Position numbers and translations under genes: made by a program
Assembly (NCBI GenBank): GCA_016936555.1
Contig: JAFGXR010000081.1
Location: 1-48,220 of the forward strand
Length of the DNA: 48,220 nt
From: Spirochaetales bacterium
Lineage (GTDB): Bacteria > Spirochaetota > Spirochaetia > DSM-2461
Direction: 5' to 3'
In this document: in pieces, positions 19,263 to 36,176 of the stretch
Layout of the letters: the number at the start of each line of letters is the position of its first letter
How positions within the stretch are numbered: the stretch's first letter is position 1
Notes under the pieces: generated by a model
The model's database searches: none
What the model was told of the DNA's origin: nothing
The model's input: only the letters and a program-made list of their open reading frames with translations

Positions 19263-20504
19263 CTATAAATCGATTTGGATTTCCGATTCCTCCGATGAGG
19301 GAATCTGAAATCTCTGATGTCTGCCTTCAAACTCCAGTTCGTATTCTCCGAGAAAGCCTTTCACTTCAATCTCTCCCTTTGAATCAGAGACAAATTCTGC
19401 CGGTTTGAGCCACCATTCACCTTTGAACAGATCTTTGAGGGCATGATAGGAGGGTTTCGGTGTGTTGTCCCGGCGGATCAGACCGGACGGAGCGTTCAGC
19501 CAGGCACCGTCCTTAATATCCCACCACGTGATGGATTCGACCAGAGGATGGGACAGCAAGGTCTTGATGTGCGTGACGACTTCTTCGGCCTGCCGTTCCT
19601 CCCCCTCGGGAGTGCTGGGCCAGTCGGTCACCTGAAAATCGTTCAGGTCCTTAATTTCCGGCGGCATCAGATCCCCGGAGATAATGGTGTTTTCGGTAAA
19701 ATGTATCGGCAGGCCGAATCTTTCGAACCGCTCGAGGATTCTCTCCGTTTTTTCCACGCCCCAGTATCCCTGGTGCATATGCGATTGAATCCCTATTACG
19801 TCTATTTCAATTCCCGCTTCAAGGCAGCCTTCCACCAGGATGTCATAGGCCGGAGAGGTATCGAAATCGTTTATGAGGAACCGGGCCCGGGGATTGGTTT
19901 TCCTGGCCGTCTCAAACATGATTTTAAGCAGTTCGATACGCCCTTTCTCTTTGCACAGCCTGGTCAATCCGTTGTCGTATTTATCGAAGATGGGCATGAT
20001 GACCGCTTCGTTTACCACGTCCCAGGTATCCACGATTCCGGCGAAATCCGAAACGTCCCGCTTGATGCGGTCTATCTGGGTCCGGAGGATTTCCTCATTG
20101 GTCATATCCAGTAGCCAGTTCGGGGCAAGAGTATGCCAGCACAGCGGATGCCCTTTGAGCGCAATATCGTGGCTGCGGTACCAGGATGCAAGCTTCTTCA
20201 TGTTTTCCGTACCGGGCCTGCCCTGTTCCGGCTCGAAATTGGCCCAGTAAAAAGGCAGAGTCACCTGATTGAAAAGATCCAGATATAAATTGGTGAGGAT
20301 TTCCGCCTTCTCCCCCGCCGGTCCGTCTAATTCCTTTCCGGCAAACCGGATTATGTCATCCTGCCAGTTTGAACCGAATTGGAATTTGTGATTTTTCTGA
20401 CCGATACGAACGGCGCACCCTGTGACAGGCCTGCCCCCCCGTGTCAGTTTTATTTTGACAGAGCCAGTGCGGTTTTTGTGTATTTTCCTATCCAATGCTC
20501 CCAA
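19263..20504 (-). CDS. Cytoplasmic GH10 xylanase / exo-oligoxylanase
   Basis: A second GH10 enzyme, 413 residues, without signal peptide. Motifs are GHPLCWHTLAPNW, the acid/base E166 in WDVVNEAV, GIQSHMHQGYW, the nucleophile E271 in HFTENTI and SITWWDIKDGAWL. The N-terminal 45 residues and the C-terminal KGEIEVKGFLGEYELEF segment form small beta-rich additions, which also occur in other intracellular GH10 enzymes. The start codon is TTG at 20504 with a strong GAGGAGG seven bases away. It probably shortens imported xylo-oligosaccharides. It is poorly similar to the neighbouring lipoprotein GH10 outside the motifs, so it does not look like a recent duplicate. It lies 27 bases upstream of that gene in the same operon. 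Confidence 0.9.
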   Translation of the reverse strand: MGALDRKIHKNRTGSVKIKLTRGGRPVTGCAVRIGQKNHKFQFGSNWQDDIIRFAGKELDGPAGEKAEILTNLYLDLFNQVTLPFYWANFEPEQGRPGTENMKKLASWYRSHDIALKGHPLCWHTLAPNWLLDMTNEEILRTQIDRIKRDVSDFAGIVDTWDVVNEAVIMPIFDKYDNGLTRLCKEKGRIELLKIMFETARKTNPRARFLINDFDTSPAYDILVEGCLEAGIEIDVIGIQSHMHQGYWGVEKTERILERFERFGLPIHFTENTIISGDLMPPEIKDLNDFQVTDWPSTPEGEERQAEEVVTHIKTLLSHPLVESITWWDIKDGAWLNAPSGLIRRDNTPKPSYHALKDLFKGEWWLKPAEFVSDSKGEIEVKGFLGEYELEFEGRHQRFQIPSSEESEIQIDL

Positions 20505-20618
20505 AACGAAGCCTCCTCATATTTATTACATAATGATTGTATGGCCGGATGACAGGTGATGAAAATCGGTCATTACACCTATAAACCGTTGAGAATAAGA
20601 CCTATGGAGCCTTAAAAC

Positions 20619-20638: not shown

Positions 20639-22072
20639 TCAGATAAATCCAAAATCGAGCAGACTGGCCAGACCGTTTCCGCGGAACCGGATATACAGGG
20701 GATGGATTCCGTCCTGAATATCGACGGCCCCTTCGTACTTCTCCCATGCCGTGGAGAAGTCGGTTACCTCAATTGATCCGCGGACCGGGCCGTTCCATTC
20801 GGTCAGGATTTCAAAGCTTCCCCTGCAATATCCCCGGACGCTGAGGGCCATGCGGCTGACGCCGCTGAATTCAAAGTATTTGAAGCCGGCCACGGCGCCG
20901 TCCATCATATTGGCCACATAGCCGACTCCGGAATCGCCATCCCATTCATCCTGGGTGATTTTAGGGAAGCGGTTGTCCATATAGGCATTGGCGCCGGTGT
21001 AAACCGATTCTTCCCTGCAGAAAAGATTGCAGGCCATGTGCGCCGGATACTCACCGCGGGCCGGAAGATTTCCCCCCTTTAACCCGCACGATGTCATTTC
21101 CGCCTGTTCGATCGTCCCGTCGGCAGCCATGATTATCGGCTCGGCGCAGGCCTGGCGGCTGAAATTCGTCCCGTTCGTATGGCGGTGGTAGAAAATGTAT
21201 TTCTTTTTGCCCAGATCGAGGATGCCCCCGTGGTTGTTACCGCCGTAATACATGGGTTTCTCCGCCGGCTTATAGCTGTCTATATGAAGATCGCTGTTGC
21301 TGACCACCACGCCCCGGTATTCAAACCCTTCGGTCGGACTGGGGCTGACGGCATAACACAATTCGTGAAAGACCACAGAGGAGTACACAAAATAATACAG
21401 GCCATTGATTTTGCGGATGGAAGACGCTTCGAAAAACTCGTGACCGGCAAAGGAGCTTCCCTCCCCATAGGGCTTGCTCGGAGCTATGTTTTCCGGCCCC
21501 TTGAGAACCGTCAGCATATCCTCTCCCAGGACGGTTACCATGGGACCGGTCCGGGACGGATCATCAGCGGGGCAGAAACCGGTGTACAGGTAGGTTTTGG
21601 ATCCCTCGGTGAGGACGGCCGGATCAAACTGAGGCTCGTCACCCGGTCCGTCTCCCAGAAGAGTACCGTCCTGATGGTGAACATAACCGTAAAAGCTGTA
21701 TCTGCCCGCCGGGCTGTCGCATACGGCGACCGATACCACGGAAACTTTATCAAGCACATAGTAAAGGTAGTATCTCCCATCGGGGCCCCGGGTGACATCG
21801 GGAGCGTATAGGCACATTTTGCTGTGGGGATTGAGGGGATCGTCGGTTTTTTTATAGATCTCGCCCTCGTACTGCCAGCTGGTCAGGTCGCCGGGATCGG
21901 CGGACCAGCAGACATAATCGTTCAGGCAGTACCCGTGCCCGTTGAATCTGTCGTGGGAGCCGTATATGTAAACTCTTCCTTCGAATAAATGGGGTTCCGC
22001 ATCGGGGACGTATTCCCAGGACGGAAGATAGGGATTAATTCCCCGTTGTGCGATAGAAGATTCACTTGCCAT
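20639..22072 (-). CDS. GH43 glycosidase with C-terminal CBM6-like module
   Basis: Predicted alpha-L-arabinofuranosidase or beta-xylosidase, 477 residues, cytoplasmic. The five-bladed propeller shows the three acidic residues of GH43: Asp in VPDAEPHLFEGRVYIYGSHD, Asp in YAPDVTRGPDGRYYLYY and Glu in FEASSIRKINGLYYFVYS. From about residue 350 the chain changes to a jelly-roll-like, CBM6-type module (GYVANMMDGAVAGFKYFEF to IRFRGNGLASLLDFGFI). The open frame runs 72 residues further upstream into the divergent promoter region, but the ATG at 22072 has GGGAGG at good distance and begins at the conserved region, so it is preferred. It is the first gene of the leftward xylan operon. Confidence 0.85.
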   Translation of the reverse strand: MASESSIAQRGINPYLPSWEYVPDAEPHLFEGRVYIYGSHDRFNGHGYCLNDYVCWSADPGDLTSWQYEGEIYKKTDDPLNPHSKMCLYAPDVTRGPDGRYYLYYVLDKVSVVSVAVCDSPAGRYSFYGYVHHQDGTLLGDGPGDEPQFDPAVLTEGSKTYLYTGFCPADDPSRTGPMVTVLGEDMLTVLKGPENIAPSKPYGEGSSFAGHEFFEASSIRKINGLYYFVYSSVVFHELCYAVSPSPTEGFEYRGVVVSNSDLHIDSYKPAEKPMYYGGNNHGGILDLGKKKYIFYHRHTNGTNFSRQACAEPIIMAADGTIEQAEMTSCGLKGGNLPARGEYPAHMACNLFCREESVYTGANAYMDNRFPKITQDEWDGDSGVGYVANMMDGAVAGFKYFEFSGVSRMALSVRGYCRGSFEILTEWNGPVRGSIEVTDFSTAWEKYEGAVDIQDGIHPLYIRFRGNGLASLLDFGFI

Positions 22073-22222
22073 GGTCAGGCCTCCCTGCAGCCGGCCCCTC
22101 TCAGGGCTGTATTTCATAGAGCTATTGTCCAATCGCCTTATATAAAAATCAATCCGTCTTTTAGCCGATATGGATAGGTAATATGACCGATGCGCCGAGG
22201 GGTGTTTACGCCGCTTCCGGAT

Positions 22223-22271: not shown

Positions 22272-24623
22272 ATGAAATCTCTGGACAAACAGGCGGAAGA
22301 AATAGTACGCCAACTGCGGATCGAAGAAAAACTCGCTCAGCTCTACTCCATCTGGTGCAATTTTTCCGAAAACGGCAACATAGAAATACGAAGCATGGAA
22401 GGTTTTAAGAATTCCTACCGCAAGCTGGACATGCAGCGCGATTTACAGCATGGAATCGGCCATATCGTCAGGCCCCTCGGCAGTCAGCCCATTTCCGCCC
22501 CGGCCGGAGTGAAAGCGCTCAATGCCATTCAGGCCTACCTGGTCAAGCACACCCGCATGGGGATTCCCGCACTCCCCCACGAGGAGTGCCTGACCGGCCT
22601 TATGGCCAGAGGCGCGACGCTGTTTCCCTCGGGCATAAACAACGGCTCGCTCTGGGATGAAGATCTCGTCGGCGAAATCGCAGAGGCTATCGGCCATGAA
22701 CTGCGAAGCGTCGGCAGCAAGCTCGGGCTGGCGCCGGTCCTTGACGTGGCGCGCGATGCCCGGTGGGGGAGGCTGGAAGAGAGCATGGGAGAGGATCCCT
22801 ATCTGGTCGGTTCTTTAGCTACGGCCTGGGTTCGCAATTTCCAGGGGCCCGATGAGGATATAATGGCCACCCTCAAGCATTTCGCCGGGCACTCCCTTCC
22901 CGAAGGCGGGCGGAACCACGCGCCGGTCAGGATCGGAGAATCGGAATTGAATGACACGATGCTGCTGCCCTTCGAGATGGCGGTGAAGCTGGCTTCCCCG
23001 GGGGCTCTTATGCCCGCCTATCACGACATAGACGGCGTCCCTCTCCACGCATCGCGCAAATATCTGGGCGATGTCCTCAGAGAAGCCTGGAAATTCCGGG
23101 GACTCATTGTTTCCGATTACGCCGGAATAGGCCAGCTTCACAACGAACACGGTGTCGCAGAAGATTTGGAAGGGGCGGCCGCTCTGGCTCTCGAAGCCGG
23201 CGTCGACGTGGAGTTTCCCGGTAACGAGTGCTTCGGGCCAGCCGCCCTGAGAGCCATTGAAAAGGGCACACTGCCCGTAGCCCTGGTAGACCGGGCCGTC
23301 AGGCGGGTGCTGAAGGAAAAAATCAGGCTCGGGCTTTTCGATAATCCCTATACTGATGAAAAAGCCATTGACCTCCGCAGTGAATCGACAAGGAATACGG
23401 CCTATAAGGCTGCGGCGCAATCGGCCGTTCTGTTGAAGAACAACGGCATCCTGCCCCTGGACAATCCCGGCTCGATCGCTCTGATCGGACCATTGGCGGA
23501 CGACAAGATGGCTATGCTAAGCGGCTATTCCTTCCCGGTCCACCTGATTCTCAGCGGGCTGGAGGGGGAAGATCCGGAACTCAAAACAGTCAGAAACGTA
23601 TTTGAAGAGTTTTTTCCCGGCAAAGTCAGCTATTCAAAGGGATGCGATGTCCTGACAGAGCGTCCCAAAGAAGCGGCTGTTTTCCCGGGAGACCTGTCCC
23701 TGGACGGCAGGAGTCAGAAAAGCTATATCAGCTACGACACCGCCGGTTTTTCAGAGGCTGTCGATCTCGCCGGAAAATCCGATACGGTCATTGCCGTCCT
23801 GGGAGATCTGGCCGGATTGTTCCTCACGGGAACCGTGGGAGAAGGTTCCGATGCGAGCTCCCTGCACCTACCGGGAGTCCAGCATCAGCTTCTGGAATCT
23901 CTCCTCGCCACGGGCAAGCCGGTCATTGCCGTGCTCGTCAGCGGAAGGCCCTACAGCCTGGGGAGCCTCGGTGAGAAATGCGCGGCCCTGCTTCAGGCCT
24001 GGCTTCCGGGAATGTACGGGCCCGAAGCCATTCTCAATATACTAACAGGCCGGGAGAACCCCTCGGGAAGACTGCCTGTTTCGATTGTGGAGAAGGCGGG
24101 CGTCATGCCCTACTTCTACAATCACAAATTGAAATCGGCCGGCACGCCGCTCCATCCCGATTTTGCGGCGGATTACCCCTTCGGACACGGTTTGAGCTAT
24201 ACGTCTTTTTCCTACTCCGATTGGGAAATTCCGGCTGGTTCTGTTGAGATAACCGGTTCCGTTAAAGGCTCTTTCAAAATTACCAATACCGGCCCAGTGA
24301 AGGGCGCCGATGTCATCCAGATATATGTGAGGGATCTCTTTGCGAGCAGGGTCCGTCCCGTTAAAGAACTGAAGGGATTCAAAAAGGTATTTCTCGAGCC
24401 CGGAGAAACCGCCGATGTGGATTTTGAAATTCCTGTGGACATGCTGAATTTCACAGTTGACAACTTCGTCCGGATCGTCGAACCGGGCGACTTTGAAATA
24501 ATGCTGGCCGGAAACGCCGAATCCGTCGCATTCAGTTCGGTCATACATGTGACGGGCGAAAAGCGGCAGCTTCCCCACGATTGGTCAATGAAATCATCCC
24601 TTACCATTCGCCGGCATATATAG
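22272..24623 (+). CDS. GH3 beta-xylosidase / beta-glucosidase
   Basis: A 783-residue cytoplasmic glycosidase that releases terminal sugars from xylo-oligosaccharides. The N-terminal barrel carries the substrate motif KHFAGHS and the nucleophile D282 in GLIVSDYAGIGQLH. The alpha/beta sandwich domain (about 370-640) starts with VLLKNNGILPL, and a fibronectin-III-like domain (about 690-770) ends the protein with VKELKGFKKVFLEPGE. Compared with the other GH3 in this window (31412-33538) the sequence is very different, so the two probably have different specificities. GGAG lies eight bases before the ATG. It is the first gene of an operon with the sensor kinase and response regulator, diverging from the GH43-GH10 operon. 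Confidence 0.9.
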   Translation: MKSLDKQAEEIVRQLRIEEKLAQLYSIWCNFSENGNIEIRSMEGFKNSYRKLDMQRDLQHGIGHIVRPLGSQPISAPAGVKALNAIQAYLVKHTRMGIPALPHEECLTGLMARGATLFPSGINNGSLWDEDLVGEIAEAIGHELRSVGSKLGLAPVLDVARDARWGRLEESMGEDPYLVGSLATAWVRNFQGPDEDIMATLKHFAGHSLPEGGRNHAPVRIGESELNDTMLLPFEMAVKLASPGALMPAYHDIDGVPLHASRKYLGDVLREAWKFRGLIVSDYAGIGQLHNEHGVAEDLEGAAALALEAGVDVEFPGNECFGPAALRAIEKGTLPVALVDRAVRRVLKEKIRLGLFDNPYTDEKAIDLRSESTRNTAYKAAAQSAVLLKNNGILPLDNPGSIALIGPLADDKMAMLSGYSFPVHLILSGLEGEDPELKTVRNVFEEFFPGKVSYSKGCDVLTERPKEAAVFPGDLSLDGRSQKSYISYDTAGFSEAVDLAGKSDTVIAVLGDLAGLFLTGTVGEGSDASSLHLPGVQHQLLESLLATGKPVIAVLVSGRPYSLGSLGEKCAALLQAWLPGMYGPEAILNILTGRENPSGRLPVSIVEKAGVMPYFYNHKLKSAGTPLHPDFAADYPFGHGLSYTSFSYSDWEIPAGSVEITGSVKGSFKITNTGPVKGADVIQIYVRDLFASRVRPVKELKGFKKVFLEPGETADVDFEIPVDMLNFTVDNFVRIVEPGDFEIMLAGNAESVAFSSVIHVTGEKRQLPHDWSMKSSLTIRRHI

Positions 24624-24651: not shown

Positions 24652-27048
24652 GTGAGTGCTGTGACAATGCGTGAATTCGACAAGGTCTTCGGTGTTATAA
24701 CCGCGGGAATTAACGACTCCTACCAGGCGGGGATCTGGAGGGGAATCGTCTCGAAAACGGAGGAATCCGGCACGGGACTGGTTAGCTTCCTCGGATCACG
24801 CATCAATTCCCCCCATCCCGACGAGAACAATTCCAACATTGTCTACTCCCTTGTCGGCAAAAATCAGATCGACGGTCTGATAATTATCAGTTCAGCCATA
24901 TCAACTTATGTCGAGCCCGATCAGCTGGCCAGGCTTCTGGAGCCATGGTCGGATATTCCCAGAGTGTCGCTGGGGCTTGCCATACCGGGAATTCCCAGCG
25001 TAACCGTCGAAGGCCGGAAAGCCATAGGCTCAATTGTAAAGCACCTGATCCACGACCATAAGCGCCGCTGCTTCGGTCTGATCTCCGGTCCCCGGTACCA
25101 CGAGGAATCACGGTTGAGAATGAAAAGTTTCTACGAATTCCTCGAAAGCGAAGGCATCCCGACCGCATCGGTTCCCTGGATCGAAGGAGACTTCAATACC
25201 GAATCAGGCAGACAATGCGTTTCCGCCCTGCTCGATTCGGAAGCGGAGATCGACGCCTTATTCTGCCTGAACGACAATATGGCCCTGGGTGCCATGGAAG
25301 AGCTGATATCCCGGGGGTACCGCGTACCGGAGGATATCTCGATTTTCGGTTTTGACGGAATTGCGGAGGCTCAGTTTTTCAATCCTCCCCTTACCACGGT
25401 ACGCCAGCCGCTCTTCGAAATGGGAGCCAAGGCGGTGGAAATGCTCTTCCAGCAGCTGGAGGGGAAGCCTCTATCGAATATAAGGCTCAGCTGTTCTCCG
25501 CTCATAGGCGAATCCTGCGGCTGCAAGAGCCATGAAAGACCTTTCGGCGACGGGGATTTCGCCATTTCTTCGAAAAGCCGGACCTATACCGAATCGGAAA
25601 TCAATCAGTTGAAAAAAACCGTACTCGAGGGGCGGGAACAGGATCTCCTGGAACTGCTCTCCGAAAGCCTGGGCTCTTCCCTGCAGTCCCCGTCGGCCAT
25701 TCAATCGCTTCAGTCCATGCTTTTCGCTGCCCAGAAGGAACTTCTTCTCTCCGCGGGAGCTTCGGACCGGGACCGGATGGCCGGCATTTCCGATTTAATA
25801 GCCAGGGGAGTTTCGTATCTGAACCGGCAAATGGTCTTTTCCCTCTCCTCGAGAAGACTGAAGGAATACGAGCAGAATTCCGTAACCCGCTCTTTCGGAG
25901 CCTATATATCGGAAGCCTTTGATAAGGATTCCATCCTGAACAGGGTGAAAGAAGGTCTGTCCCTTATCGGGTACTCCGAAGGCTATATGGGAATCATGTC
26001 AGGCTGGGGAGAGGAAAACCGGCAAAACCGCGACAGATGGGAGCTCTTCCATCTGTCCGAGGAAGTCCGCTACCTGAACAGTTTCGACGGCGGCATCCGG
26101 CAGCTTCCCGACGCCCTGCACGAGGCCTGGGGCAGGAGCCGCTGCGTCATCAAGCCCCTTGTGTCCGAGTCGGATATTTTCGGCATCATCATTCTGCCGG
26201 TTAAAACCGATGACCCGGGCTTCTACGACATCATATCCAAGCAGATCGCGAGCACCCTCAAAGGCTATCATCTCATGGAACAGGTCAAGCAGCACGAGCG
26301 GGGTCTGGAGGCGGAAGTGGAGAAGCGTACCGGGGAATTGATCAGAACCAACACGAAGCTCCAGAGCGAAGTGGAACTGCGCACGAGGCTCGAGAGGGAT
26401 CTTATAGAAATATCGAATGAGACCATGAACCGGATCGGCCAGGATCTCCATGATGATCTGTGCCAGCATCTGGCCGGCATTTCCATGCTCACCAAGGTTC
26501 TGGGAAACAGTCTGCCCGAGGGATCAGCGGCCTCGGACACGGTTGAGAAAATAGCGAATATGCTGGGAGATTCCATTGAAAGGGCGAGAAACATATCCCG
26601 GGGGCTCGTTACCATCGGCCTTGCGGAAAACGATTTCGTCGCGACGATCGACAGCCTTATAGAATCACTGAAAAAGAGCAGCGGATTACCCATATCTCTC
26701 ATCGTGGGGAACAAGTTCTCCATTGAAAAAGGGGACAGACGGATCCAGCTCTACCGGATTATTCAGGAAGCCCTCTCCAATGCCATAAAGCACTCGGGCT
26801 GCAGCAGAATCGTGGTGGATATGGGAATGATAAAGGCCCGGACCGGCCACCGTCCTTCGGCGGACCTTCCCGCACCGGGATTTTATGTTCGTATCGAAGA
26901 TGACGGCGTGGGATTTGTAAAACCCGCAAAGTCCTCGGGAATGGGCCTGCAGATAATGGAATACCGGGCCGAAAAAGCCTGCATGTCCCTCGATTTCCAG
27001 AAAACCAAGGGAGGGGGTACGACGGTGCTGTGCACCGCCATCTGCTGA
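24652..27048 (+). CDS. Soluble histidine kinase with LacI-type sugar-binding sensor domain
   Basis: A 798-residue protein with no membrane segment or signal peptide. Residues about 8-290 are a LacI/PBP-fold ligand-binding domain (KVFGVITAGINDSYQAGIWRG, IDALFCLNDNMALGAMEELISRG, DISIFGFDGIAEAQFFNPPLTTVRQP), but the DNA-binding helix-turn-helix that normally precedes it is absent. A GESCGC motif follows, then a helical/GAF-like region (about 390-540) and a coiled coil. The kinase is of the HisKA_3 type: the phospho-acceptor is H600 in GQDLHDDLCQHLAGI, and the ATPase has IIQEALSNAIKHS and GMGLQIMEYRA. It is followed by a NarL-type regulator 26 bases later. Inference: it senses a xylo-oligosaccharide or pentose inside the cell. 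The start may be GTG 24652 or 24661, or ATG 24667. Confidence 0.9.
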   Translation: MSAVTMREFDKVFGVITAGINDSYQAGIWRGIVSKTEESGTGLVSFLGSRINSPHPDENNSNIVYSLVGKNQIDGLIIISSAISTYVEPDQLARLLEPWSDIPRVSLGLAIPGIPSVTVEGRKAIGSIVKHLIHDHKRRCFGLISGPRYHEESRLRMKSFYEFLESEGIPTASVPWIEGDFNTESGRQCVSALLDSEAEIDALFCLNDNMALGAMEELISRGYRVPEDISIFGFDGIAEAQFFNPPLTTVRQPLFEMGAKAVEMLFQQLEGKPLSNIRLSCSPLIGESCGCKSHERPFGDGDFAISSKSRTYTESEINQLKKTVLEGREQDLLELLSESLGSSLQSPSAIQSLQSMLFAAQKELLLSAGASDRDRMAGISDLIARGVSYLNRQMVFSLSSRRLKEYEQNSVTRSFGAYISEAFDKDSILNRVKEGLSLIGYSEGYMGIMSGWGEENRQNRDRWELFHLSEEVRYLNSFDGGIRQLPDALHEAWGRSRCVIKPLVSESDIFGIIILPVKTDDPGFYDIISKQIASTLKGYHLMEQVKQHERGLEAEVEKRTGELIRTNTKLQSEVELRTRLERDLIEISNETMNRIGQDLHDDLCQHLAGISMLTKVLGNSLPEGSAASDTVEKIANMLGDSIERARNISRGLVTIGLAENDFVATIDSLIESLKKSSGLPISLIVGNKFSIEKGDRRIQLYRIIQEALSNAIKHSGCSRIVVDMGMIKARTGHRPSADLPAPGFYVRIEDDGVGFVKPAKSSGMGLQIMEYRAEKACMSLDFQKTKGGGTTVLCTAIC

Positions 27049-27074
27049 TTCAATAAATATGAAGGAAGATAGAT

Positions 27075-27731
27075 ATGCCTAATAAAGGAATAATCGAGTT
27101 TCTGGTTGTCGACGATCACCCGATCTTCAGACAGGGTCTCGTCGCTCTTCTCGAAAGCGAATTGAGATATAAAGTCAAAGGACAGGCGGGAAGCGCCCGG
27201 GAAGCCGAGCAATTTCTCTCCGGCGACAAGGTCGATATCATACTGCTCGATATGTCCCTCGGCGACAGCAAAGGCATCGATCTTATCCGGGATCTGAAAA
27301 GCAGATACCCGTCTATCCCCATACTGGTCATATCCATGCACGACGAGCTGATTTACGCCGAGCGGGTCTTGAAAGCCGGCGCCAGCGGCTACATCATGAA
27401 GGAAGAGGCCTGGGCGGTCACTCTGGAAGCCATTCAGAAAGTGCTGAACGGCAAAGTTCATGTATCGCAGAACATAAACCAGCGCCTGCTTTCGAAAATG
27501 TATACGCAGAAAGATGAGACCCTGCCCGAAGAGCTTTTGAGCGACAGGGAGTTTGAAGTCCTGGAATACATGGGCCAGGGCTACGGCACAGGAGAGATTT
27601 CCGAATCGATGAACCTGTCTGTCAAAACCGTCAGCACCTATCGCGATCACATCAAGGAAAAACTTCAGCTGTCCTCGGCCGCACAGGTCCGCCGCTATGC
27701 CGTCAAATGGTGGCAGAGCAGACGGACCTGA
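27075..27731 (+). CDS. NarL/FixJ-family response regulator
   Basis: DNA-binding partner of the preceding kinase, 218 residues. The receiver (1-120) has the acidic pair D13/D14, phospho-acceptor D59 in IILLDMSLGDS, S87 and K109 in GYIMKEE. The C-terminal LuxR/GerE helix-turn-helix reads LSDREFEVLEYMGQGYGTGEISESMNLSVKTVSTYRDHIKEKL. HisKA_3 kinases characteristically pair with this class, which supports a functional pair with the 24652-27048 gene. Its stop is eight bases from the stop of the convergent GH51 gene, leaving no room for a separate terminator. Likely targets are the xylan operons on either side; this is inference from position. Confidence 0.93.
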   Translation: MPNKGIIEFLVVDDHPIFRQGLVALLESELRYKVKGQAGSAREAEQFLSGDKVDIILLDMSLGDSKGIDLIRDLKSRYPSIPILVISMHDELIYAERVLKAGASGYIMKEEAWAVTLEAIQKVLNGKVHVSQNINQRLLSKMYTQKDETLPEELLSDREFEVLEYMGQGYGTGEISESMNLSVKTVSTYRDHIKEKLQLSSAAQVRRYAVKWWQSRRT

Positions 27732-27738
27732 TTCCCCT

Positions 27739-29253
27739 TCAGGTCGCGGCGCTGAGGACGATGCAGTTCCAGCTCAGGGGAAGGACCTCACCGGCAATCT
27801 TTCCCTTTTCATAGCGGATACCCGAACCGTCCCGGGGAATGACATTATCCCGGTTGTCCCTGCTGTTCACCGCCTTATTGTCTTCGTGAACCATAACCTT
27901 GTGTTCGGCCAGCCGGAATTCTTCGAATCCATCCAATTGAAAATCGAGAGAAAGTGTGGACTCCCGGTTGCGGTTAATCACGAACAGGGCCAGAACCCCG
28001 GCCTCTTCGTTATGGACCGCCGCCACATCGAGATAGGGGATTTCCCCGTATTTGTCATTCTTATAGGATGGACAGTCGACCATCAGCCGGATGGCGGTGC
28101 CCCTTCCGTACCGGGAAGCATATTGGAAGGGATAATAGATTGTCTGCTTCCAGGCGGGACCGCCGTTTTCCGTCATGATCGGGGCGATGACATTCACCAG
28201 CTGGGCGAGACAGGCTATTTTCACCCTGTCGGAATGACGGATCAAAGTATTCAGCATCATCCCCACCACGAGGGCGTCTTCGAAAGTGTATATATCCTCG
28301 AGAAGCGAAGGACCGACCTGCCAGGGCTTGTTTTTGTAAATATTCTGATCCTGCTGATTGGAATGAAACCAGACGTTCCATTCGTCGAAAGAGAGATAGA
28401 TCGTCTTTTCCGATCTTTTTTTGGCCTTTATATAATCACAGGCATGAATGACTTCCTCGATATACTTGTCCATGCTTGTCGGGGAAGCGAGAAAGGCCTC
28501 CAGATCGTCCTTGGCATTCTCCAGGTACATATGGATGGAAATGTAGTCGACGTTCTCGTAGCTTTCGTCCAGGACCTGTCTCTCCCATTCGGGAAATGTG
28601 GGCATGCCGCAGCCCGAGGAACCGCAGACCACGAGCTCCAGGTTCGAATCGTATAACTTCAAAGCCCTGGCCGTTTCGTTGGCGAGTCTGCCGTATTCGT
28701 ATGCCGTCTTGTGGCCGACCTGCCAGGGACCGTCCATCTCATTGCCGAGGCACCAGATGCCAATGCCAAGGGGGGTCTCCCGGCCGTGGCTTTTTCTCAA
28801 CTCACTCCAGTATGATCCTTCCGAATGGTTGGAGTACTCGACGACTTCTGTCGCCTCCTGCAGTCCCCTCGTTCCCAGATTAACGGCCATCATCACTTCC
28901 GATCCGGCTTTTTCGGCCCACCTGGCAAATTCATGAAGCCCTACTTCATTGGGCTCCGTGGATTTCCAGGCCAGATCCAGGCGCCTGGGCCTCTCTTCGA
29001 CGGGACCGACTGTATCTTCCCATTTGTAGGAAGAGACAAAATTTCCCCCGGGATAGCGGATGACAGGGACATTGAGTTCGCGCACCATCTCCAGGACATC
29101 CTGTCTGAAGCCGTCCTCATCGGCAGTTTCATGGCCCGGTTCATATATACCGCCGTAGACAGCTCTGCCGAGATGCTCGATAAAGGCTCCGTAAATCCTC
29201 TTGTCAATTTTTGCTATGGATAAATTCCTGTTAGCGTATATTTTTGCTTTCAT
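27739..29253 (-). CDS. abfA: GH51 alpha-L-arabinofuranosidase
   Basis: Removes arabinose side chains from arabinoxylo-oligosaccharides, 504 residues, cytoplasmic. Characteristic segments are YGAFIEHLGRAVYGGIYEPG at the start, RYPGGNFVSSYKWEDTVGP, the acid/base E172 in CLGNEMDGPWQVGHK and the nucleophile E291 in LSFDEWNVWF. The C-terminal beta-sandwich (from about 390) ends with LPLSWNCIVL, as in AbfA proteins. Length is standard for intracellular GH51. AAGGAA precedes the ATG. It is the last gene of the SGNH-GH3-GH67-GH51 operon, 74 bases after the GH67 stop. Confidence 0.95.
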   Translation of the reverse strand: MKAKIYANRNLSIAKIDKRIYGAFIEHLGRAVYGGIYEPGHETADEDGFRQDVLEMVRELNVPVIRYPGGNFVSSYKWEDTVGPVEERPRRLDLAWKSTEPNEVGLHEFARWAEKAGSEVMMAVNLGTRGLQEATEVVEYSNHSEGSYWSELRKSHGRETPLGIGIWCLGNEMDGPWQVGHKTAYEYGRLANETARALKLYDSNLELVVCGSSGCGMPTFPEWERQVLDESYENVDYISIHMYLENAKDDLEAFLASPTSMDKYIEEVIHACDYIKAKKRSEKTIYLSFDEWNVWFHSNQQDQNIYKNKPWQVGPSLLEDIYTFEDALVVGMMLNTLIRHSDRVKIACLAQLVNVIAPIMTENGGPAWKQTIYYPFQYASRYGRGTAIRLMVDCPSYKNDKYGEIPYLDVAAVHNEEAGVLALFVINRNRESTLSLDFQLDGFEEFRLAEHKVMVHEDNKAVNSRDNRDNVIPRDGSGIRYEKGKIAGEVLPLSWNCIVLSAAT

Positions 29254-29327
29254 GGCCGTTCCTTCCTTTTATATAAAGTTATGACTTAAACAGATAAAAC
29301 ATGTATATATCACAATATCCTGCTCCG

Positions 29328-31415
29328 CTATTTCTTACTTGAGAAAGACCGGAAGTAAGGCACGCAGACCTCGAGCCATTCCCGGGCGTCGGCCAGCTGA
29401 ATCTTCAGCTTTTCTCTTACAGCCTTGAATCGCAGGGGATCAATCCTGTCCCCAATGTCTTCCCAGAGCCGGATCATTTCTTCAACACCAGCCACACCTG
29501 TTTTATATCGCGCCTCGATTTCATCCATGAGCGTTCTCCCCGAGGAAAGCGCCCTGTCCCAGGGAACATGATGAAACCAGAGGAGGTATTTTTCCGGGCA
29601 GGTATCCATCGATCCGAAAAGAGAGGAACAGGGCTCCGGGTACTGCCCGGTTGCTTTTGTTCCCCCTGGACTGCGGTCGAAACCCAGACCGGCTCCATCG
29701 GCTCTGTGATAATAGGTCGATCGCCAATCCTCCCTTTCCCCGCCGTTAAAACCGGGATCGGGACCGTAATGGTGCCCCTCTTTCATGATATGATGGAGGC
29801 CGAGGGGCGTCATGTAATTGATGCAGGTTTCCCATGAGGGAAGGAGCATCCGCATACAAACATCGAAGACTTTTTCGTCGGAACCGAAGGTCTGGACGAT
29901 CCATTCTCCGGCGATGGCTTCGGGACTCAGGCCGGGGTTCCAGGCCAGGCGGCCGTAGGCGTACCAATTGAGCGGATGAAAATGAGATCCGCACCAGGTT
30001 GCCTCATCACCGATATTCGACACCGCCGCTATGCCTGTGATTCTGCCGTTCCGTTCATTCGTAAGGCGGGAAACAACCGAAGAGGGCGATTCCGGATTCG
30101 AAAAGCCGCCGGCGAAATCGAAATCCAGGATCTCCTTCCACATAGGCGCCAGGTAGACGATATGATTCCCCTGGCCCAGGTATTCCTGGGTTATCTGGAA
30201 TTCCATAAAGGAATTCGTATTATTGAGATGGGAGAACAGGGGGTGAACCGGTTCTCTGGGCTGGAAATCGATCGCCCCGTTCTTAATCTGGATCACGCAA
30301 TTGTCATCGAACTCTCCATCCAGCGCCGAGAAGGTCGAATAGGCGGTTTTAGCTCTATCCGCTTCACCGTGGCCGTAGACGAAAGCCCTCCAGATAAGCA
30401 CCCCTCCATGGGGAGCGAGAGCCCGGGCAAGCATATTGGCCCCCTGGGCATGATTCCGGTGATAACTGAAGGGACCGGGCTGCCCTTCCGAGTCGGCTTT
30501 TACCAGAAATCCTCCGAAATCGGGGATGAGCCCATAAATCTCGTCGCATTTTTCCATCCACCATTGCCGGACCTCCCGATCCAGAGGGTCCGCCGTATCC
30601 AGATTCCCGATAATCATCGGAGAAGCGAAATTGACCGAAAGAAATGTCCTGATTCCCCAGCCCGCCAGAACCTGCGCTATGGCTTTCACTTTCTTCAGAT
30701 TTTCGCTCTGCAGAACCGTCTGGGCGTCATTGACATTATTCAGCACGGTGCCGTTCAGGCCTACCGATGCGCAGGCCCTGGCGTAATCTTCATAGCGGTT
30801 ATCCACCCGGTCCGGCAGCTCCTGCCACTTCCACAGAGATTTTCCCGCATATCCCCGCTCTATCGATCCATCGAAATTGTCCCAATGATTGAGCATTCTC
30901 CAGTTGAAAGCCGGCGATCCGGCAAATGCGCTGCCCGGTTCGGGAAGAGGGCCGGTTGTTATCCTCCGCAGCAGCTCAAAAACGCCATAGATTAAAGCCG
31001 GTTCATCTTCGCCGATAACCCACAGGGCATCGCTTTCCCCTTCATAACCCCTTTCAGAATTTCCGGGCATGATCAGGGTGAAAGCTTCCGGTTTACCCTT
31101 CACGCTGTCATCAGGTTCAAGCCCTGTTCCCGGAATCATTTCGCCCAGGGAATGCTTTGTTCCCGCAATTATTGAGGGGCGGAACCGGGAGTTGTCATTT
31201 CTTTTAGAATCGATATGGCGAACTGTTTTCACCTTTTCTCCGGTCAGGCCGGAGAACCCCCGTTCCAGTTCATCTGCGGCATTGTCAATGACCGGTCCAT
31301 CTCCGTAGACATGGATTTCCCTGGACAAATCTTCAGCGATAGCCCGTCTTTCGCTGTCTAAACGATTATAAGCCATCCACAAATCATATCCGCTGAAGTC
31401 TTTCATTCTATTCAT
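29328..31415 (-). CDS. aguA: GH67 alpha-glucuronidase
   Basis: Removes 4-O-methylglucuronic acid from the non-reducing end of aldouronic acids, 695 residues, cytoplasmic. GH67 landmarks are YDLWMAYNRL at the start, INNVNDAQ-like GTVLNNVNDAQTVLQ, FGGFLVKADSEGQPGPFSYHRNHAQGAN with the acid Glu, then NCVIQIKNGAIDFQPREP and MEFQITQEYLGQGNHIVYLAPMWKE with the general-base Asp/Glu pair, and HFHPLNWYAYGRLAWNP. The frame is open upstream inside the GH3 gene, but the ATG at 31415 forms a four-base ATGA overlap with the GH3 stop and is preferred; an ATG three codons later is also possible. Such enzymes work on imported oligosaccharides, which fits the operon. Confidence 0.95.
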   Translation of the reverse strand: MNRMKDFSGYDLWMAYNRLDSERRAIAEDLSREIHVYGDGPVIDNAADELERGFSGLTGEKVKTVRHIDSKRNDNSRFRPSIIAGTKHSLGEMIPGTGLEPDDSVKGKPEAFTLIMPGNSERGYEGESDALWVIGEDEPALIYGVFELLRRITTGPLPEPGSAFAGSPAFNWRMLNHWDNFDGSIERGYAGKSLWKWQELPDRVDNRYEDYARACASVGLNGTVLNNVNDAQTVLQSENLKKVKAIAQVLAGWGIRTFLSVNFASPMIIGNLDTADPLDREVRQWWMEKCDEIYGLIPDFGGFLVKADSEGQPGPFSYHRNHAQGANMLARALAPHGGVLIWRAFVYGHGEADRAKTAYSTFSALDGEFDDNCVIQIKNGAIDFQPREPVHPLFSHLNNTNSFMEFQITQEYLGQGNHIVYLAPMWKEILDFDFAGGFSNPESPSSVVSRLTNERNGRITGIAAVSNIGDEATWCGSHFHPLNWYAYGRLAWNPGLSPEAIAGEWIVQTFGSDEKVFDVCMRMLLPSWETCINYMTPLGLHHIMKEGHHYGPDPGFNGGEREDWRSTYYHRADGAGLGFDRSPGGTKATGQYPEPCSSLFGSMDTCPEKYLLWFHHVPWDRALSSGRTLMDEIEARYKTGVAGVEEMIRLWEDIGDRIDPLRFKAVREKLKIQLADAREWLEVCVPYFRSFSSKK

Positions 31416-33538
31416 TTTGATTCTTCTATGTTTATTTCCACTATTCCCGTCGACCATGTTTCCGGAAAGTCTTTGATGAACCGGGGAGAGCAATTGCTGA
31501 TGAGCACCTGACAAACTCCCGGAACGAGACGTCTGATACCGTCATCGCCAACGGTTTCGAAATCTTCAGGCTTTAGAACGAACTCAACCCTGCCGGAGGC
31601 TCCCGCGGCAATACTCAGCCGCTTAAAGGCCCTGAGACTCCAGTCCGGTCCCTTGCGCCCTTCTCCGCTGTGCCTCAGATAGACCTGGCAAACCTCTTCG
31701 CCTTCTCTGCTGCCCTTATTGGCAATGTCCACCTGGATTTTAATGTTTTCACCGGCTCTTATATCCGTGCCGGATATTTTCCTGTTTTCAGGGGCGAAAC
31801 GGCTATAGCTCAGTCCGAATCCGAAGGGAAAGAGCGGCCGTTTTTCCATGTACCGATAGGTCCGTCCCGCCATGGAGTAATCCTCGTAGGGGGGAAGGTC
31901 TTCGGTGGAAACGGGAAATGTGAGGGGAAGCTTGCCCGAGGGGTTCGTCTCTCCGAAGACGATATCGGCTACGGCGCGCCCGCCCTGTTCTCCGGGATAC
32001 CAGGCAAACAGGATAGCGTCGGCTATATTGTCAGGTACGGCGATCGGGCTTCCGCCGGTGAGAATGAGAACCAGCGGCTTGCCTCTGTCTCTCAGGGCCT
32101 GAAGATATTCCAGCTGCCAGGGCGGCAGTTCGATTCTGTCCCGGTCCCCCTTGCAGTCCGAAGCTACGGCATCGCCCTCTTCCCCCTCGATGGCGCTGTC
32201 GATGCCGAAGACCGCGATAACCACATCGGCTTTTTCAGCCATCCCCACAGTCCACCCCGTGTTCTTGTTCGGCCCGTACATCCCGATTCCCGGGTGATAG
32301 TCCATGCTGATTCCCGGCCGTTCCGAAAGGGCCCCGCTCATCCCTTCCAGTATGGAAATCAAGTCGGGGCTGAGGCCGTGGTAGTTGCCCAGAAGAACGT
32401 GGAGGTTCGCCGCTGCGGGGCCTATGAGCAGGATGCGTTTGGGCGAATCGTCCAGAGGCAGAAGATCCCCGGAGTTTTTTAATAGGACAATTGATTTTCT
32501 CGCGGCTCTTAAGGCCAGATCCAGATGCTCCGGTGACCGGACGACCTCAGGATCCGTACCTTTGTAGGGGTTGGGGTTTGAAGGATCATCTGTCCCCAGG
32601 ATCCCCAGTTTATATCTGGTTCTTAAAAGCCTGGACACCGAGAGATCGAGATAGGATTCGTCGAGCAGACCGTTCCGCACAGCATTGCAGAGGACTTCGT
32701 AGGCGTTGCCGCAGTTCAGATCGCAGCCTCTTTGCACCGCCAGAGCCGCCGATTCTTCGGCGTTTCGCGTAAGGCCGTGGTTTTCATGGAGGTCCTTGAT
32801 GGCCCAGCAGTCAGACACATAATGGCCTTCAAAACCCCATTCTCCCCGGAGAATCTCTTCCATAAGGAAGCTCGACGCGCAGCACGCTTCTCCGAGAGTG
32901 CGGTTATAGGCGCCCATGACCGATTCCACCCCTTCCTCCACCAGCGCTTTGAAGGCCGGAAGGTATGTCTCGTGGAGGTCTTTCAGGGAAACCCGGGCAT
33001 CGAAGCTGTGGCGGAGGGCTTCGGGACCGCTGTGGACCGCAAAATGCTTCGCGCAGGCCGCTGTTTTCAAATAGCGCGGGTCATCGCCCTGAAGTCCCCG
33101 CACGAAGGCCTGGCCCATCCGGGTCGTCAGGACAGGATCCTCTCCATAGGTCTCCTGACCTCTCCCCCACCGGGGATCCCTGAAGATATTTATATTAGGC
33201 GTCCAGAAAGTGAGGCCGTGGTACTGCTCCCTCACGCCCCGGGAAACAGCCTGCTCGTACTTGGCCCTGGCTTCGTCGGCGATGGACGAAGCGACGGACT
33301 CGGCGAGATCGGGGTCGAAGGTCGCGGCCAGGGCGATCGCCTGGGGAAAGACCGTTGCGACTCCCGCCCGGGCTATGCCGTGAAGGGCCTCGTTCCACCA
33401 GTTGTACCGGGGAATTCCGAGCCTGTCGATGGCCGCACTTCCGTGAAGCATCTGGGAGACTTTTTCCTCCATGGTCATCTGTTGTATTAAATCTGCAATT
33501 TCCTGTTCCTGCTCTCCGGCAAGTCTGATAAAACTCAT
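31412..33538 (-). CDS. GH3 xylan 1,4-beta-xylosidase-like enzyme
   Basis: A 708-residue cytoplasmic GH3 enzyme. Its N-terminus (IADLIQQMTMEEKVSQM, RYNWWNEALHGIARAG), FWTPNINIFRDPRWGRGQETYGEDP, CAKHFAVHSGPE and the nucleophile D243 in GHYVSDCWAIKDLH belong to the xylosidase branch of GH3. The sandwich domain starts near residue 330 (SIVLLKNSGDLLPL), includes GEEGDAVASDCKGDRDRIELP, and the fibronectin-like domain closes the chain. No signal peptide is present. AAGGAG lies nine bases upstream. It is the second gene of the leftward operon after the SGNH esterase and overlaps the GH67 start. Confidence 0.92.
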   Translation of the reverse strand: MSFIRLAGEQEQEIADLIQQMTMEEKVSQMLHGSAAIDRLGIPRYNWWNEALHGIARAGVATVFPQAIALAATFDPDLAESVASSIADEARAKYEQAVSRGVREQYHGLTFWTPNINIFRDPRWGRGQETYGEDPVLTTRMGQAFVRGLQGDDPRYLKTAACAKHFAVHSGPEALRHSFDARVSLKDLHETYLPAFKALVEEGVESVMGAYNRTLGEACCASSFLMEEILRGEWGFEGHYVSDCWAIKDLHENHGLTRNAEESAALAVQRGCDLNCGNAYEVLCNAVRNGLLDESYLDLSVSRLLRTRYKLGILGTDDPSNPNPYKGTDPEVVRSPEHLDLALRAARKSIVLLKNSGDLLPLDDSPKRILLIGPAAANLHVLLGNYHGLSPDLISILEGMSGALSERPGISMDYHPGIGMYGPNKNTGWTVGMAEKADVVIAVFGIDSAIEGEEGDAVASDCKGDRDRIELPPWQLEYLQALRDRGKPLVLILTGGSPIAVPDNIADAILFAWYPGEQGGRAVADIVFGETNPSGKLPLTFPVSTEDLPPYEDYSMAGRTYRYMEKRPLFPFGFGLSYSRFAPENRKISGTDIRAGENIKIQVDIANKGSREGEEVCQVYLRHSGEGRKGPDWSLRAFKRLSIAAGASGRVEFVLKPEDFETVGDDGIRRLVPGVCQVLISNCSPRFIKDFPETWSTGIVEINIEESK

Positions 33539-33571
33539 GGGGGAAATCTCCTTGTCTACATTATTTCCGGG

Positions 33572-34216
33572 TTAGGTGTATGCGGGGCGAAAGATCTTTG
33601 AGATCTCCGCCGAGAGAATCGGACCGAGGATTCTGTATCCTGCGGCGTTCAGGTGAAGCCCGTCGGGAAGCAAACTGCGGTCCGGCCGGCCCCCGTCAGT
33701 CAGAAAAGAGCTTCCCGGGTCCAGGAACGCATATCCCCTGCGGGCGCATAAGCTTTGCAATCCCTTATTGATTTCAATGATGCGGGAACAGTAATCCATG
33801 CCGGTCTCATCGAGGTCTCTCGGAAGAATTCCAAGGACCAGAAGCTTCGCATCGGAAAGCCGGTTTTCTATGCTCCTGCCTAGATCTGCCAGGCCGTCGA
33901 GGATATAGGCGTTGTCACGGGTTCCCAGATTGTTTGTCCCGGCGAGGATGACAGCTACAGAGGGATTCATCCCCTCCAGTTCGCCGTTTTCCATACGCCA
34001 GAGAATATTCTCCAGTGTATCGCCGCCAAAGCCGAGATTCGCCGGACGGAAGCTCCCGAAGAACTCATCCCAGAGATCGGGATTGTCCTCCCACCGCCGC
34101 GTCAGGCTGTCGCCTATAAAGAGGACGCCGACACGGTCCTTTCCGGACATGTCCATAATCCGTCTGTGCTTTTCACTATGATGATCATCTGAACGCATGA
34201 TAGGCTCTATCGGCAT
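33572..34216 (-). CDS. SGNH/GDSL-type hydrolase, probable carbohydrate esterase
   Basis: A 214-residue cytoplasmic esterase of the SGNH superfamily. The four conserved blocks are visible: block I VLFIGDSLTRRWED with the catalytic Ser, block II ANLGFGGDTLENILWRM with the oxyanion Gly, block III ILAGTNNLGTRD with the Asn, and block V LLPDGLHLNAAGY with the Asp-His pair. This resembles platelet-activating-factor acetylhydrolase-like enzymes. Given its place at the head of the GH3-GH67-GH51 operon, deacetylation of xylo-oligosaccharides is the likely role, but that is inference. The start at 34216 is chosen because the frame upstream enters promoter DNA; the ribosome site (AAGG/GGA) is modest. 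Confidence 0.8.
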   Translation of the reverse strand: MPIEPIMRSDDHHSEKHRRIMDMSGKDRVGVLFIGDSLTRRWEDNPDLWDEFFGSFRPANLGFGGDTLENILWRMENGELEGMNPSVAVILAGTNNLGTRDNAYILDGLADLGRSIENRLSDAKLLVLGILPRDLDETGMDYCSRIIEINKGLQSLCARRGYAFLDPGSSFLTDGGRPDRSLLPDGLHLNAAGYRILGPILSAEISKIFRPAYT

Positions 34217-34343
34217 GTATCTGTCTTCCTTCTTCCTTTCCCTGCGGCATTTCCAACGGGCGCCGCGGCCCCCCGTTATGAAATCAAGTATACCAGAGAG
34301 GAAGGCCCTCTTAGTATAGGTCAAATCACCGACCATATTATCA

Positions 34344-34462: not shown

Positions 34463-36151
34463 ATGAAGCGCACTTTATTAACTGCTTTTCTATCAGTCAT
34501 TTTATCCACCGTGCTTTTCGCCAGTGGAGCAGATGAAGCGAAGGGTGCCAAAGGAAACGGAGAGCCCCATGTATTCTCTCCCGACAATCCGGTCACGATC
34601 GATGCCTGGATCGTAACCAGCCAGACAGCTCCCTCACCGGACAACAAAATTTCGAAATTGCTGAAGGAGAGACTCGGAGTTACGCTTAATTACGATATAA
34701 CGACTCCCGATCAGCAACTGGATCGCATCGGAATCATGCTGGCTGCGGGAACGATTCCCGAGCTCGTCGGATCGACCGACCAGAACGCCAGACTCGTTCA
34801 GGGCGGAGCTATGCTGCGTCTCGACGATTACCTCGACAGCGGGCGGTGGCCACTCCTCGCGGAGCACGTCAGACCGGTCCGGAAAAAACTGACCTGGACA
34901 GGCGGCGGCGTTGAAGACGGCTTGTACCAGTTCCCCAATTACAACCGCTTTTACGGCAATCCCCCCATAATGTCTCCTATCCACTGGGGTTCTGCATTCT
35001 GGATCCAGAAAGACGTTCTCGCTTTCCACAATTACCCCTCTCTGGAAAACATGACGCTCGAGCGCTATTTCGATCTGATCGAATCCTATATGAAAGCCAA
35101 CCCCACCATCGACGGCGCTAAAACAATCGGGTTCTCCTTCCCCATGCAGGGACGTGTCTGGGGACTTACCAATCCTCCCCTGTTTCTTGCGGGATACCCC
35201 AATGACGGCGGCGTCATGGTCGATGACGGCCAGGCTAAAATTTACGCGAACTCCAAATATGCCTATGATTACTTCAAGTTCCTGAACATGGCCCATGACC
35301 GCGGTCTGGTCGATCCCGAATCATTCACCCAGACCCTGGACCAGTACCTGGCGAAAGTCGCCAGCGGACGGGTTCTCGGAGTTCATGACCAGAGATGGAG
35401 TTTCGGCACAGCCAACGACGCCCTTGTCGCCAATGGTCAGTACGAACGGACCTACGCGGCGACCATGCCAGTGTTCCCCGGCAAGAAGCCTTATTATGCA
35501 GATAGAGACGTACTGAATATCAATCAGGGATTCGGAATCGCTTCCAACGCGGAAAACCCAGAACTTCTTCTCGATTTCCTCGAGATCATGCTGACTCCCG
35601 AATTGCAGACCATTCTTTCCTGGGGTATCGAAGGCGAAGACTACCTGGTCGATGAAAACGGCCTCTTCTACAAGACTCAGGAAATGCGCGATAACTTCAA
35701 CAACCTGACCTGGAAACAGGACAACCGGCTTGAAGCGCTTCTCGATATCATGGTCAAGAGACAGGGCGAGCTGCCCGGAGGCAATGCCTTCGCCGCCGGG
35801 GATCAGCCCGGAGAGTTTTTCGACAGCCTGAAACAGTACGATAAGGACTTCCTCGCGGCCTACGGACTGAAGACCTGGAGACAGTTCGTAAACGATCCTC
35901 CCCCCAACCCCGCCCACTATCCCGCGTGGCAGATATCTCCTCCCGACGGCAGTGCCGCTCAGGTCGCCAATCAGCAGCTGGAAGACGCGGCTCAGAGATA
36001 CCTGAGTGAAGCAGTCCTTACCAGTCCTGCCAGATTCGACAGCGTCTGGAATGAATATATGGCTGCCATAGACAGCATCGATGTCGCGGCTTATGAAGCT
36101 GTGATAACCGAAGGCGTGCAGGCTCGCATCAGAGCCGCAGGCGGAGAATAA
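34463..36151 (+). CDS. Oligosaccharide ABC transporter substrate-binding protein (LplA-like, SBP family 1)
   Basis: Periplasmic receptor of 562 residues for an importer of large saccharides. The leader MKRTLLTAFLSVILSTVLFASGADEA is a typical signal peptide of this organism. The mature part has the LplA-type opening (NPVTIDAWIVTSQTAPSPDNKISKLLKERLGVTLNY, then LDRIGIMLAAGTIPELVG) and the late MVKRQGELPGGNAF region. The length over 500 residues is that of LplA/YtcQ-type proteins, which in many anaerobes carry xylo-oligosaccharide or aldouronic acid cargo. The two matching permease genes follow. Position between xylan operons supports xylo-oligosaccharides as cargo; the sequence alone does not prove it. 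GGAGG lies ten bases before the ATG. Confidence 0.88.
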   Translation: MKRTLLTAFLSVILSTVLFASGADEAKGAKGNGEPHVFSPDNPVTIDAWIVTSQTAPSPDNKISKLLKERLGVTLNYDITTPDQQLDRIGIMLAAGTIPELVGSTDQNARLVQGGAMLRLDDYLDSGRWPLLAEHVRPVRKKLTWTGGGVEDGLYQFPNYNRFYGNPPIMSPIHWGSAFWIQKDVLAFHNYPSLENMTLERYFDLIESYMKANPTIDGAKTIGFSFPMQGRVWGLTNPPLFLAGYPNDGGVMVDDGQAKIYANSKYAYDYFKFLNMAHDRGLVDPESFTQTLDQYLAKVASGRVLGVHDQRWSFGTANDALVANGQYERTYAATMPVFPGKKPYYADRDVLNINQGFGIASNAENPELLLDFLEIMLTPELQTILSWGIEGEDYLVDENGLFYKTQEMRDNFNNLTWKQDNRLEALLDIMVKRQGELPGGNAFAAGDQPGEFFDSLKQYDKDFLAAYGLKTWRQFVNDPPPNPAHYPAWQISPPDGSAAQVANQQLEDAAQRYLSEAVLTSPARFDSVWNEYMAAIDSIDVAAYEAVITEGVQARIRAAGGE

Positions 36152-36176
36152 AATAGAGCTTAAGCTGCATGAAAGA

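Follow-up and report, generated by a model that had tools for sequence, protein, structure and literature searches.

A predicted cytoplasmic two-component system for xylan use, with a LacI-type receptor as kinase sensor, in a Spirochaetales bacterium

Introduction

Ordinary LacI proteins are mostly repressors that are released by their ligand. Control of xylan genes is also found within this family, as in the case of the LacI-family regulator XynR of Caldicellulosiruptorales (PMC12285236). In Ruminiclostridium cellulolyticum, products of xylan or cellobiose act on ABC transporter and hydrolase genes through the three-component systems XuaDSR (PMC12175519) and CuaDSR; control is of the two-component kind, and CuaS, of the latter system, is a membrane kinase with two helices (PMC5663094). 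A D-xylose three-component system, XylFII-LytS of Clostridium beijerinckii, is reported to be one in which a pentose sensor of the PBP fold feeds a histidine kinase and a regulator (Sun et al. 2015, cited in PMC5663094). A PBP-like domain that is shared with LacI regulators is furthermore listed by a review among putative c-di-GMP sensor domains, with its purpose given as not known (PMC8846402).

The present work concerns a locus of a Spirochaetales bacterium in which a LacI-type receptor forms part of a histidine kinase. The window (the whole stretch of DNA that was analysed, 48,220 nucleotides) makes up an entire contig in a genome of 4.7 Mb. We consider it quite probable that this locus encodes a cytoplasmic two-component system for xylan use, consisting of a LacI-type receptor and a NarL-type regulator that activates its targets via a palindrome. 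The functional unit extends beyond the kinase-regulator pair, taking in the candidate operators found at 20566, 22175 and 34317 together with the xylan genes behind them.

The kinase-regulator pair and its operon

The main features of the operon are as follows.

22272..24623, plus strand: GH3 glycosidase, beta-xylosidase/alpha-L-arabinosidase-like (Pfam, co-occurrence); first gene of the GH3-kinase-regulator operon
24652..27048, plus strand: sensor histidine kinase, 798 aa, GTG start; LacI-type sensor, GAF-like domain, HisKA_3 and HATPase_c
24682..25524, plus strand: LacI-type ligand-binding domain, residues 11-291 (Pfam, PDB sequence match, fold, column conservation)
25513..25524, plus strand: SCGC motif, residues 288-291, at the terminus of the LacI-type domain
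25897..26295, plus strand: GAF-like domain, residues 416-548 (structure model and fold search)
26428..26607, plus strand: HisKA_3 dimerisation/phosphoacceptor domain (Pfam), with H600 at 26449-26451
26740..27033, plus strand: HATPase_c kinase domain, residues 697-794 (Pfam)
27075..27731, plus strand: NarL-type response regulator, 218 aa, with D59 at 27249-27251 and a GerE HTH at residues 154-209

The LacI-type domain of the kinase, which was matched by Peripla_BP_3 (residues 130-289, 3.7e-28) and Peripla_BP_1 (residues 64-269), is followed by helices, the GAF-like domain, a very long helix, and then by HisKA_3 (residues 593-652, 5e-9) and HATPase_c (residues 697-794, 1.6e-7). The N-box, G1 and G2 motifs are all present, and H600-D601 is invariant in 15/15 of the HisKA_3 kinase relatives that were aligned. 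No membrane segment was found in the kinase (peak 19-residue hydropathy 1.55), and no HTH was detected in it by Pfam scan, the LacI-type domain starting at residue 11. An HTH hidden upstream of the called start was considered and ruled out by the 28-bp gap to the preceding gene. The regulator consists of a receiver with the phosphoacceptor Asp (D59; Response_reg, 9e-25) and a GerE HTH (1.7e-15). The stop codon of the GH3 gene and the GTG start of the kinase, just 5' of which lies the sequence GGAAAG, are separated by these 28 bp and the kinase and regulator genes by 26 bp; such gaps on one strand fit a GH3-kinase-regulator operon. No signal peptide was seen on the GH3 protein, and its substrate is not fixed because its NCBIfam score (764 bits) is below the curated cut-off (1050 bits).

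These results bear out the preliminary description of the locus, which had placed the two open reading frames at 24652-27048 and 27075-27731, exactly where we find them. Its reading of a soluble kinase whose LacI-type domain is without an HTH agrees with the Pfam and fold matches, the hydropathy and the short upstream gap; the HisKA_3 kinase with H600 that it proposed is confirmed by Pfam, by the three kinase motifs and by the invariance of H600 in the 15 relatives, and the NarL-type regulator with D59 by the two regulator matches. Co-transcription with the GH3 gene, another of its proposals, is what the short gaps indicate.

The sensor domain

The best PDB sequence match of the LacI-type domain is an ancestral LacI (1.3e-35). 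The predicted structure of the kinase has a mean pLDDT of 79, with values of about 80-94 across most of the LacI-type domain, and residues 11-291 of this structure match the Lac repressor core over 267 residues (Z 28.8, rmsd 2.5). In an alignment with PurR and LacI, and by reference to the structures of these proteins, E120, H150, E152, R156, F181, N207 and D235 fall at ligand-contacting positions. The canonical LacI pocket positions among these (viz. E/D120, R156, F181, N207 and D235) are kept in the alignment, and R156, N207 and D235 are invariant in 25/25 aligned HTH-less LacI fusions. The preliminary description had proposed a check for an intact sugar pocket by structure prediction; the predicted fold is that of the Lac repressor core, and the canonical pocket positions are intact. 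H150 and E152 are invariant in 15/15 HisKA_3 kinases and not so in the fusions with other outputs, which suggests a ligand class shared by these kinases; the conservation of the pocket residues as a whole suggests that the pocket works and that the kinases are of one predicted ligand class.

No GAF domain was matched in the kinase by Pfam. When residues 416-548 were modelled alone, nearly all of the best 50 PDB rows were GAF domains, though with a best E of only 2e-3 (probability 0.99) and with TM values of about 0.4-0.58. The presence of this GAF-like domain, together with the invariance of both SCGC cysteines in 25/25 aligned fusions, could be taken to mean that the LacI-type domain is a dimerisation or linker part only, and that the true signal enters through the GAF-like domain or through the conserved cysteines (e.g. 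redox). We regard this as very improbable, in view of the invariant pocket positions on the one hand and the poor conservation of the GAF-like domain (17-40% identity outside the genus) on the other, and in view of a genomic coupling to sugar hydrolases and transporters. Sugar sensing by the LacI-type domain is the reading that is followed below.

Distribution within the Spirochaetota and coupling to xylosidase genes

A full-length kinase of the window's type is present in 10/393 sampled Spirochaetota genomes, and further genomes of the phylum have a more distant sister type; the 15 such kinases make up one clade in the Spirochaetota. Orthologues of the GH3 protein (E<1e-150) are found in the identical 10/393 genomes and in no others, an agreement whose chance would be about 10^-19 if the genomes were independent, which they are not. 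The GH3 gene is adjacent to the kinase gene or in the same operon in all ten genomes, the gene order being kinase-regulator-SBP-permease-permease-GH3 in the sampled loci and SBP-permease-permease-GH3-kinase-regulator in Sediminispirochaeta. The sister kinases (loci L071, L073 and L142) adjoin a GH52 gene (Pfam 1e-131 or better) instead of GH3, and these loci have the same ABC arrangement. To our knowledge, GH52 is known only as a beta-xylosidase family. The occurrence of two unrelated families of xylosidase type (GH3 and GH52) beside one type of sensor is most economically read as pointing to a xylan-derived ligand, and the ligand of the kinase, as judged from this gene context, is probably a xylo-oligosaccharide or a pentose. 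For this ligand class, which the preliminary description had proposed, the sister group with its GH52 genes provides strong indirect support. The earlier placement of a two-component system within a xylan locus is upheld by the domains, the fold, the pocket and the perfect co-occurrence with GH3.

In other phyla, a full-protein scan by short exact peptides, which finds close relatives only, recovered kinase-domain relatives alone, and a plasmid collection gave no full-length kinase match and LacI domains only. Two other genomes gave no match to the LacI-type domain, a result with little bearing on its spread. One genome (G361) has a second kinase-regulator pair, the regulator of which (L072:8649-9092) is 148 aa long and without GerE, and which has no operator or hydrolase nearby; this pair is possibly decaying.

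The preliminary description had ranked this system as the most unusual in the window. It is not unique, since it belongs to a Spirochaetota kinase clade, which itself lies within a broader family of LacI sensors that lack the HTH and have other outputs. Of the caveat raised there, that the fusion might be a common and already characterised family, the first part holds to the extent that such fusions turn up in several families of this phylum; as to the second, neither a characterisation nor a description of this LacI-kinase fusion was found in the open literature searched.

Xylan genes and candidate operators

Besides the operon itself, the window contains the following xylan-related genes and candidate operators.

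19263..20504, minus strand: GH10 xylanase, predicted target (Pfam GH10, 1.5e-35)
20566..20581, minus strand: candidate operator TAGGTGTAATGACCGA, upstream of GH10; directly adjoins a TTTTCA-18-TACAAT promoter-like pair
20639..22072, minus strand: GH43, predicted target (Pfam GH43; start set from the sister species, MASESS...)
22175..22190, plus strand: candidate operator TAGGTAATATGACCGA, in the promoter region from which GH43 and GH3 diverge; version of the sister species TAGGTTATATGACCGA
27739-29253, minus strand: GH51 arabinofuranosidase, predicted target
29328-31514, minus strand: GH67 glucuronidase, predicted target
31412-33538, minus strand: second GH3, predicted target
33572-34216, minus strand: SGNH esterase-like protein, predicted target; the GH51/GH67/GH3/SGNH block spans 27739..34216
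34317..34332, plus strand: candidate operator TAGGTCAAATCACCGA, with the ABC operon (34463-38151) on one side and the divergent SGNH/GH3/GH67/GH51 genes on the other
34463..38151, plus strand: ABC transporter made up of a binding protein and two permeases; predicted target, with a candidate operator upstream
41173..44259, plus strand: second ABC transporter, orthologue of the transporter that shares an operon or locus with GH3, kinase and regulator in three relatives

The palindrome TAGG-N8-CCTA was first suggested by eye from the promoters of the operons at the kinase loci of the sampled genomes and then scanned for. It occurs exactly once per 15-kb locus in 10/10 loci, and each time the site is intergenic and precedes the transporter operon. 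TAGG is the only half-site of 256 that is found in 10/10 loci at spacing 8, and when spacings of 3-19 were tried the pattern was seen with 8 only. The palindrome is also present at L142, between the regulator gene and the GH52-ABC operon, and at L143, where it accompanies a transporter of genome G266 on a contig other than that of its kinase; it precedes a transporter or hydrolase operon at 12 loci in total. Among transporter homologues, 5/6 have it in genomes with the system versus 0/11 in genomes without the system (Fisher p 0.001). The variant of the window, TAGGT-N6-ACCGA, is one base off the palindrome in one half-site and is present there in 3 exact copies (0/100 shuffles). The same variant has 8 matches genome-wide, of which the three of the window are the only intergenic ones and the other 5 are inside genes. 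All three sites are kept in the sister species, with changed spacers and again as the only intergenic copies. Conservation of the operator across related genomes is partly due to shared descent. A chance repeat was ruled out as the source of the palindrome by the shuffles, by the scan of half-sites and spacings, and by its presence only with the system.

The second transporter (41173-44259) shares 58-67% identity with the transporters of the Sediminispirochaeta operon and of locus L070, and no operator was found at it. In this genus it has, judging from its orthology, moved about 14 kb off while staying inside the same xylan region, and the absence of an operator from an orthologue of a co-operonic transporter points to a rewired regulon. 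Genes for two DNA-binding proteins, a GntR-LacI (38201-39319) and a LacI (45355-46428), flank this transporter, which brings the sugar sensors of this one fold at the locus to at least three.

With these two regulators present in the window, the palindrome could instead be the site of a different protein that controls the xylan genes (a LacI, GntR-LacI or AraC protein) and not of the NarL-type regulator. This is quite unlikely in our judgement, because in the 15-kb loci of ten relatives no homologue of the two proteins is present among the matched neighbours, whereas the kinase-regulator pair always is, and because the site is present with the pair and absent without it. The fifth base of the half-site also tracks the recognition helix of the response regulator, TAGGA occurring with VYRDN and TAGGT (or C as the fifth base) with (T/A)(Y/H)xDH among the regulators that were aligned, though this relationship is confounded by descent.

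Promoter geometry and proposed mechanism

In twelve relatives, a degenerate second copy of the palindrome begins 24 bp downstream of the first, and a -10-like element (TAnnnT) begins 47 bp after the first site (0/2000 rotations; 1/2000 with one locus per subclade), by which the palindrome copies are placed near -43 and -67. In the window, the strong site of GH10 is itself near -44, beside the -35 element, and on the side of the 34463 ABC operon a TATACT lies 48 bp downstream of the site, where the +47 spacing roughly holds. The spacing does not hold at the GH3 and GH43 genes of the window, and a search ahead of GH3 and of the 34463 ABC gene gave no consensus sigma-70 pair. As predicted from these distances, the operator layout fits a NarL-type activator, and it supports the two-component activator that the preliminary description had envisaged.

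The sign of control could also be the opposite, with the free LacI-type domain keeping the kinase on and the ligand turning it off, and with a phosphorylated regulator that represses and is released by sugar in the manner of LacI. The habit of ordinary LacI proteins, as noted above, favours such an arrangement, as does the GH10 operator, which touches the -35 element, where repressors also act. We think it unlikely, if deserving of consideration, as in the twelve relatives a fixed distance separates the sites from a -10-like element downstream of them, a good -35 is absent, as with NarL-type activators, and the second copy is near -43.

Alongside the computed anatomy, genetic coupling and operator conservation and geometry, we infer the identity of the ligand, the direction of signalling, activation as the sign of control and contact between regulator and operator. 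An imported xylo-oligosaccharide, or a pentose released from it, would bind the LacI-type domain, whose closure would be passed through the helical linker to the GAF-like domain, and from there through the long signalling helix to the HisKA_3 dimer. The kinase would then autophosphorylate at H600 and transfer the phosphate to D59 of the regulator. Dimers of the regulator would bind TAGG-N8-CCTA-like palindromes (TAGGT-N6-ACCGA in this genus), with the centre of one site near -43 and another site some 24 bp from it, and would activate the transport and hydrolase genes and, via the operon, their own system.

A wider family of HTH-less LacI sensors

The kinase is a member of a wider group, having an HTH-less LacI domain that ends in SCxC, a signalling output, and a place in a clade apart from the DNA-binding LacI proteins. 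In a tree of 53 LacI domains, in which the DNA-binding members come from this genome only, a 100/100 branch separates all fusions from all DNA-binding proteins (L013, a GntR-LacI with an overcalled start, was counted as DNA-binding; L053 is a contig-edge fragment with SCGC). The kinase clade (98/91) splits into a GH3 type (99/95) and a GH52 type (100/100). In nearly all of the HTH-less fusions the LacI domain terminates in SCGC, two having SCSC or SCRC and one lacking the motif, and SCGC is kept whatever the output domain; the DNA-binding LacI proteins of this genome are without it, apart from one with SCGH. The role of the motif may be metal-related, disulfide-forming or structural.

The same genome also encodes a LacI-GGDEF protein (L002:1378-3612) and a protein in which a LacI domain is fused to a class I kinase (L003:208-2376); the gene of the latter is the immediate neighbour of one for a GntR-LacI regulator (2400-3476). 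In another genome of this genus, three LacI-type fusions, each with a class I kinase end, follow one another in tandem (G002:C82; L027, L028 and L029). Three proteins (L043, L051 and L055) join the HTH-less LacI sensor to a C-terminal LuxR-type HTH, a one-component design in which the lost HTH is replaced at the far end. In four others (L050, L054, L056 and L058), HTH-less LacI domains are joined to MCP signalling domains; these are probably cytoplasmic sugar chemoreceptors. The same sensor is found in other Spirochaetota with kinase-receiver-GGDEF as well. A LacI-type domain in a protein annotated EAL, on a plasmid of Deinococcus peraridilitoris (L075:3977-7018), indicates that such fusions exist outside the Spirochaetota.

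We give about even chances to the view that the HTH-less SCGC LacI domains represent one ancient intracellular receptor family, which gave up DNA binding and later became attached to nearly every type of output that bacteria have (viz. HisKA_3 and HisKA kinases, diguanylate cyclases, LuxR-type HTH and chemotaxis domains). If so, the family would serve as a general front end for sugar sensing in the cytoplasm, and SCGC would be a structural or metal/redox element in its coupling.

Comparison with known systems

All component pieces of the system are already known, and no prior account of their combination was found in the open literature. Its significance lies in the predicted rewiring of a LacI-type receptor from the control of DNA binding to that of phosphorylation, which bears on the exchange of sensor modules between one- and two-component systems. 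It also directs attention to a broader group of intracellular LacI-type receptors, joined to five output types in the Spirochaetota. With a predicted ligand class, operator and regulon, the whole chain is open to tests in vitro that call for the two proteins, some sugars and a site of 16 bp, and such proteins could yield soluble, engineerable sugar-controlled kinases.

The sensor fold and pocket positions of the kinase are common to the LacI-family repressors (viz. LacI, PurR, CcpA, RbsR, CelR and XynR). The kinase differs from these in the absence of an HTH, in its predicted output, the phosphorylation of a separate regulator, and in an operator that is not of the LacI type. The kinase and regulator families are those of the NarL/UhpA-type systems (HisKA_3 and GerE), of which the known ones mostly have membrane kinases and other sensors; NarX, NarQ and UhpB are membrane-bound sensors, whereas the kinase of the window has no membrane segment. 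The PBP-like c-di-GMP proteins, of which the LacI-GGDEF protein of this genome (L002) is an example, have a different output, and the passage on them in PMC8846402 describes no two-component version.

XylFII-LytS consists of a separate extracytoplasmic binding protein and a membrane kinase, which are unfused. A sensor of the PBP fold that feeds a kinase is common to both systems, and the fusion of sensor and kinase is found only in that of the window. XuaDSR and CuaDSR likewise respond to extracellular sugar by way of a separate binding protein and a membrane kinase, whereas the window's system combines these functions in one soluble chain; the fusion of the binding domain to a soluble kinase indicates that, unlike in XuaDSR and CuaDSR, the signal would be read inside the cell.
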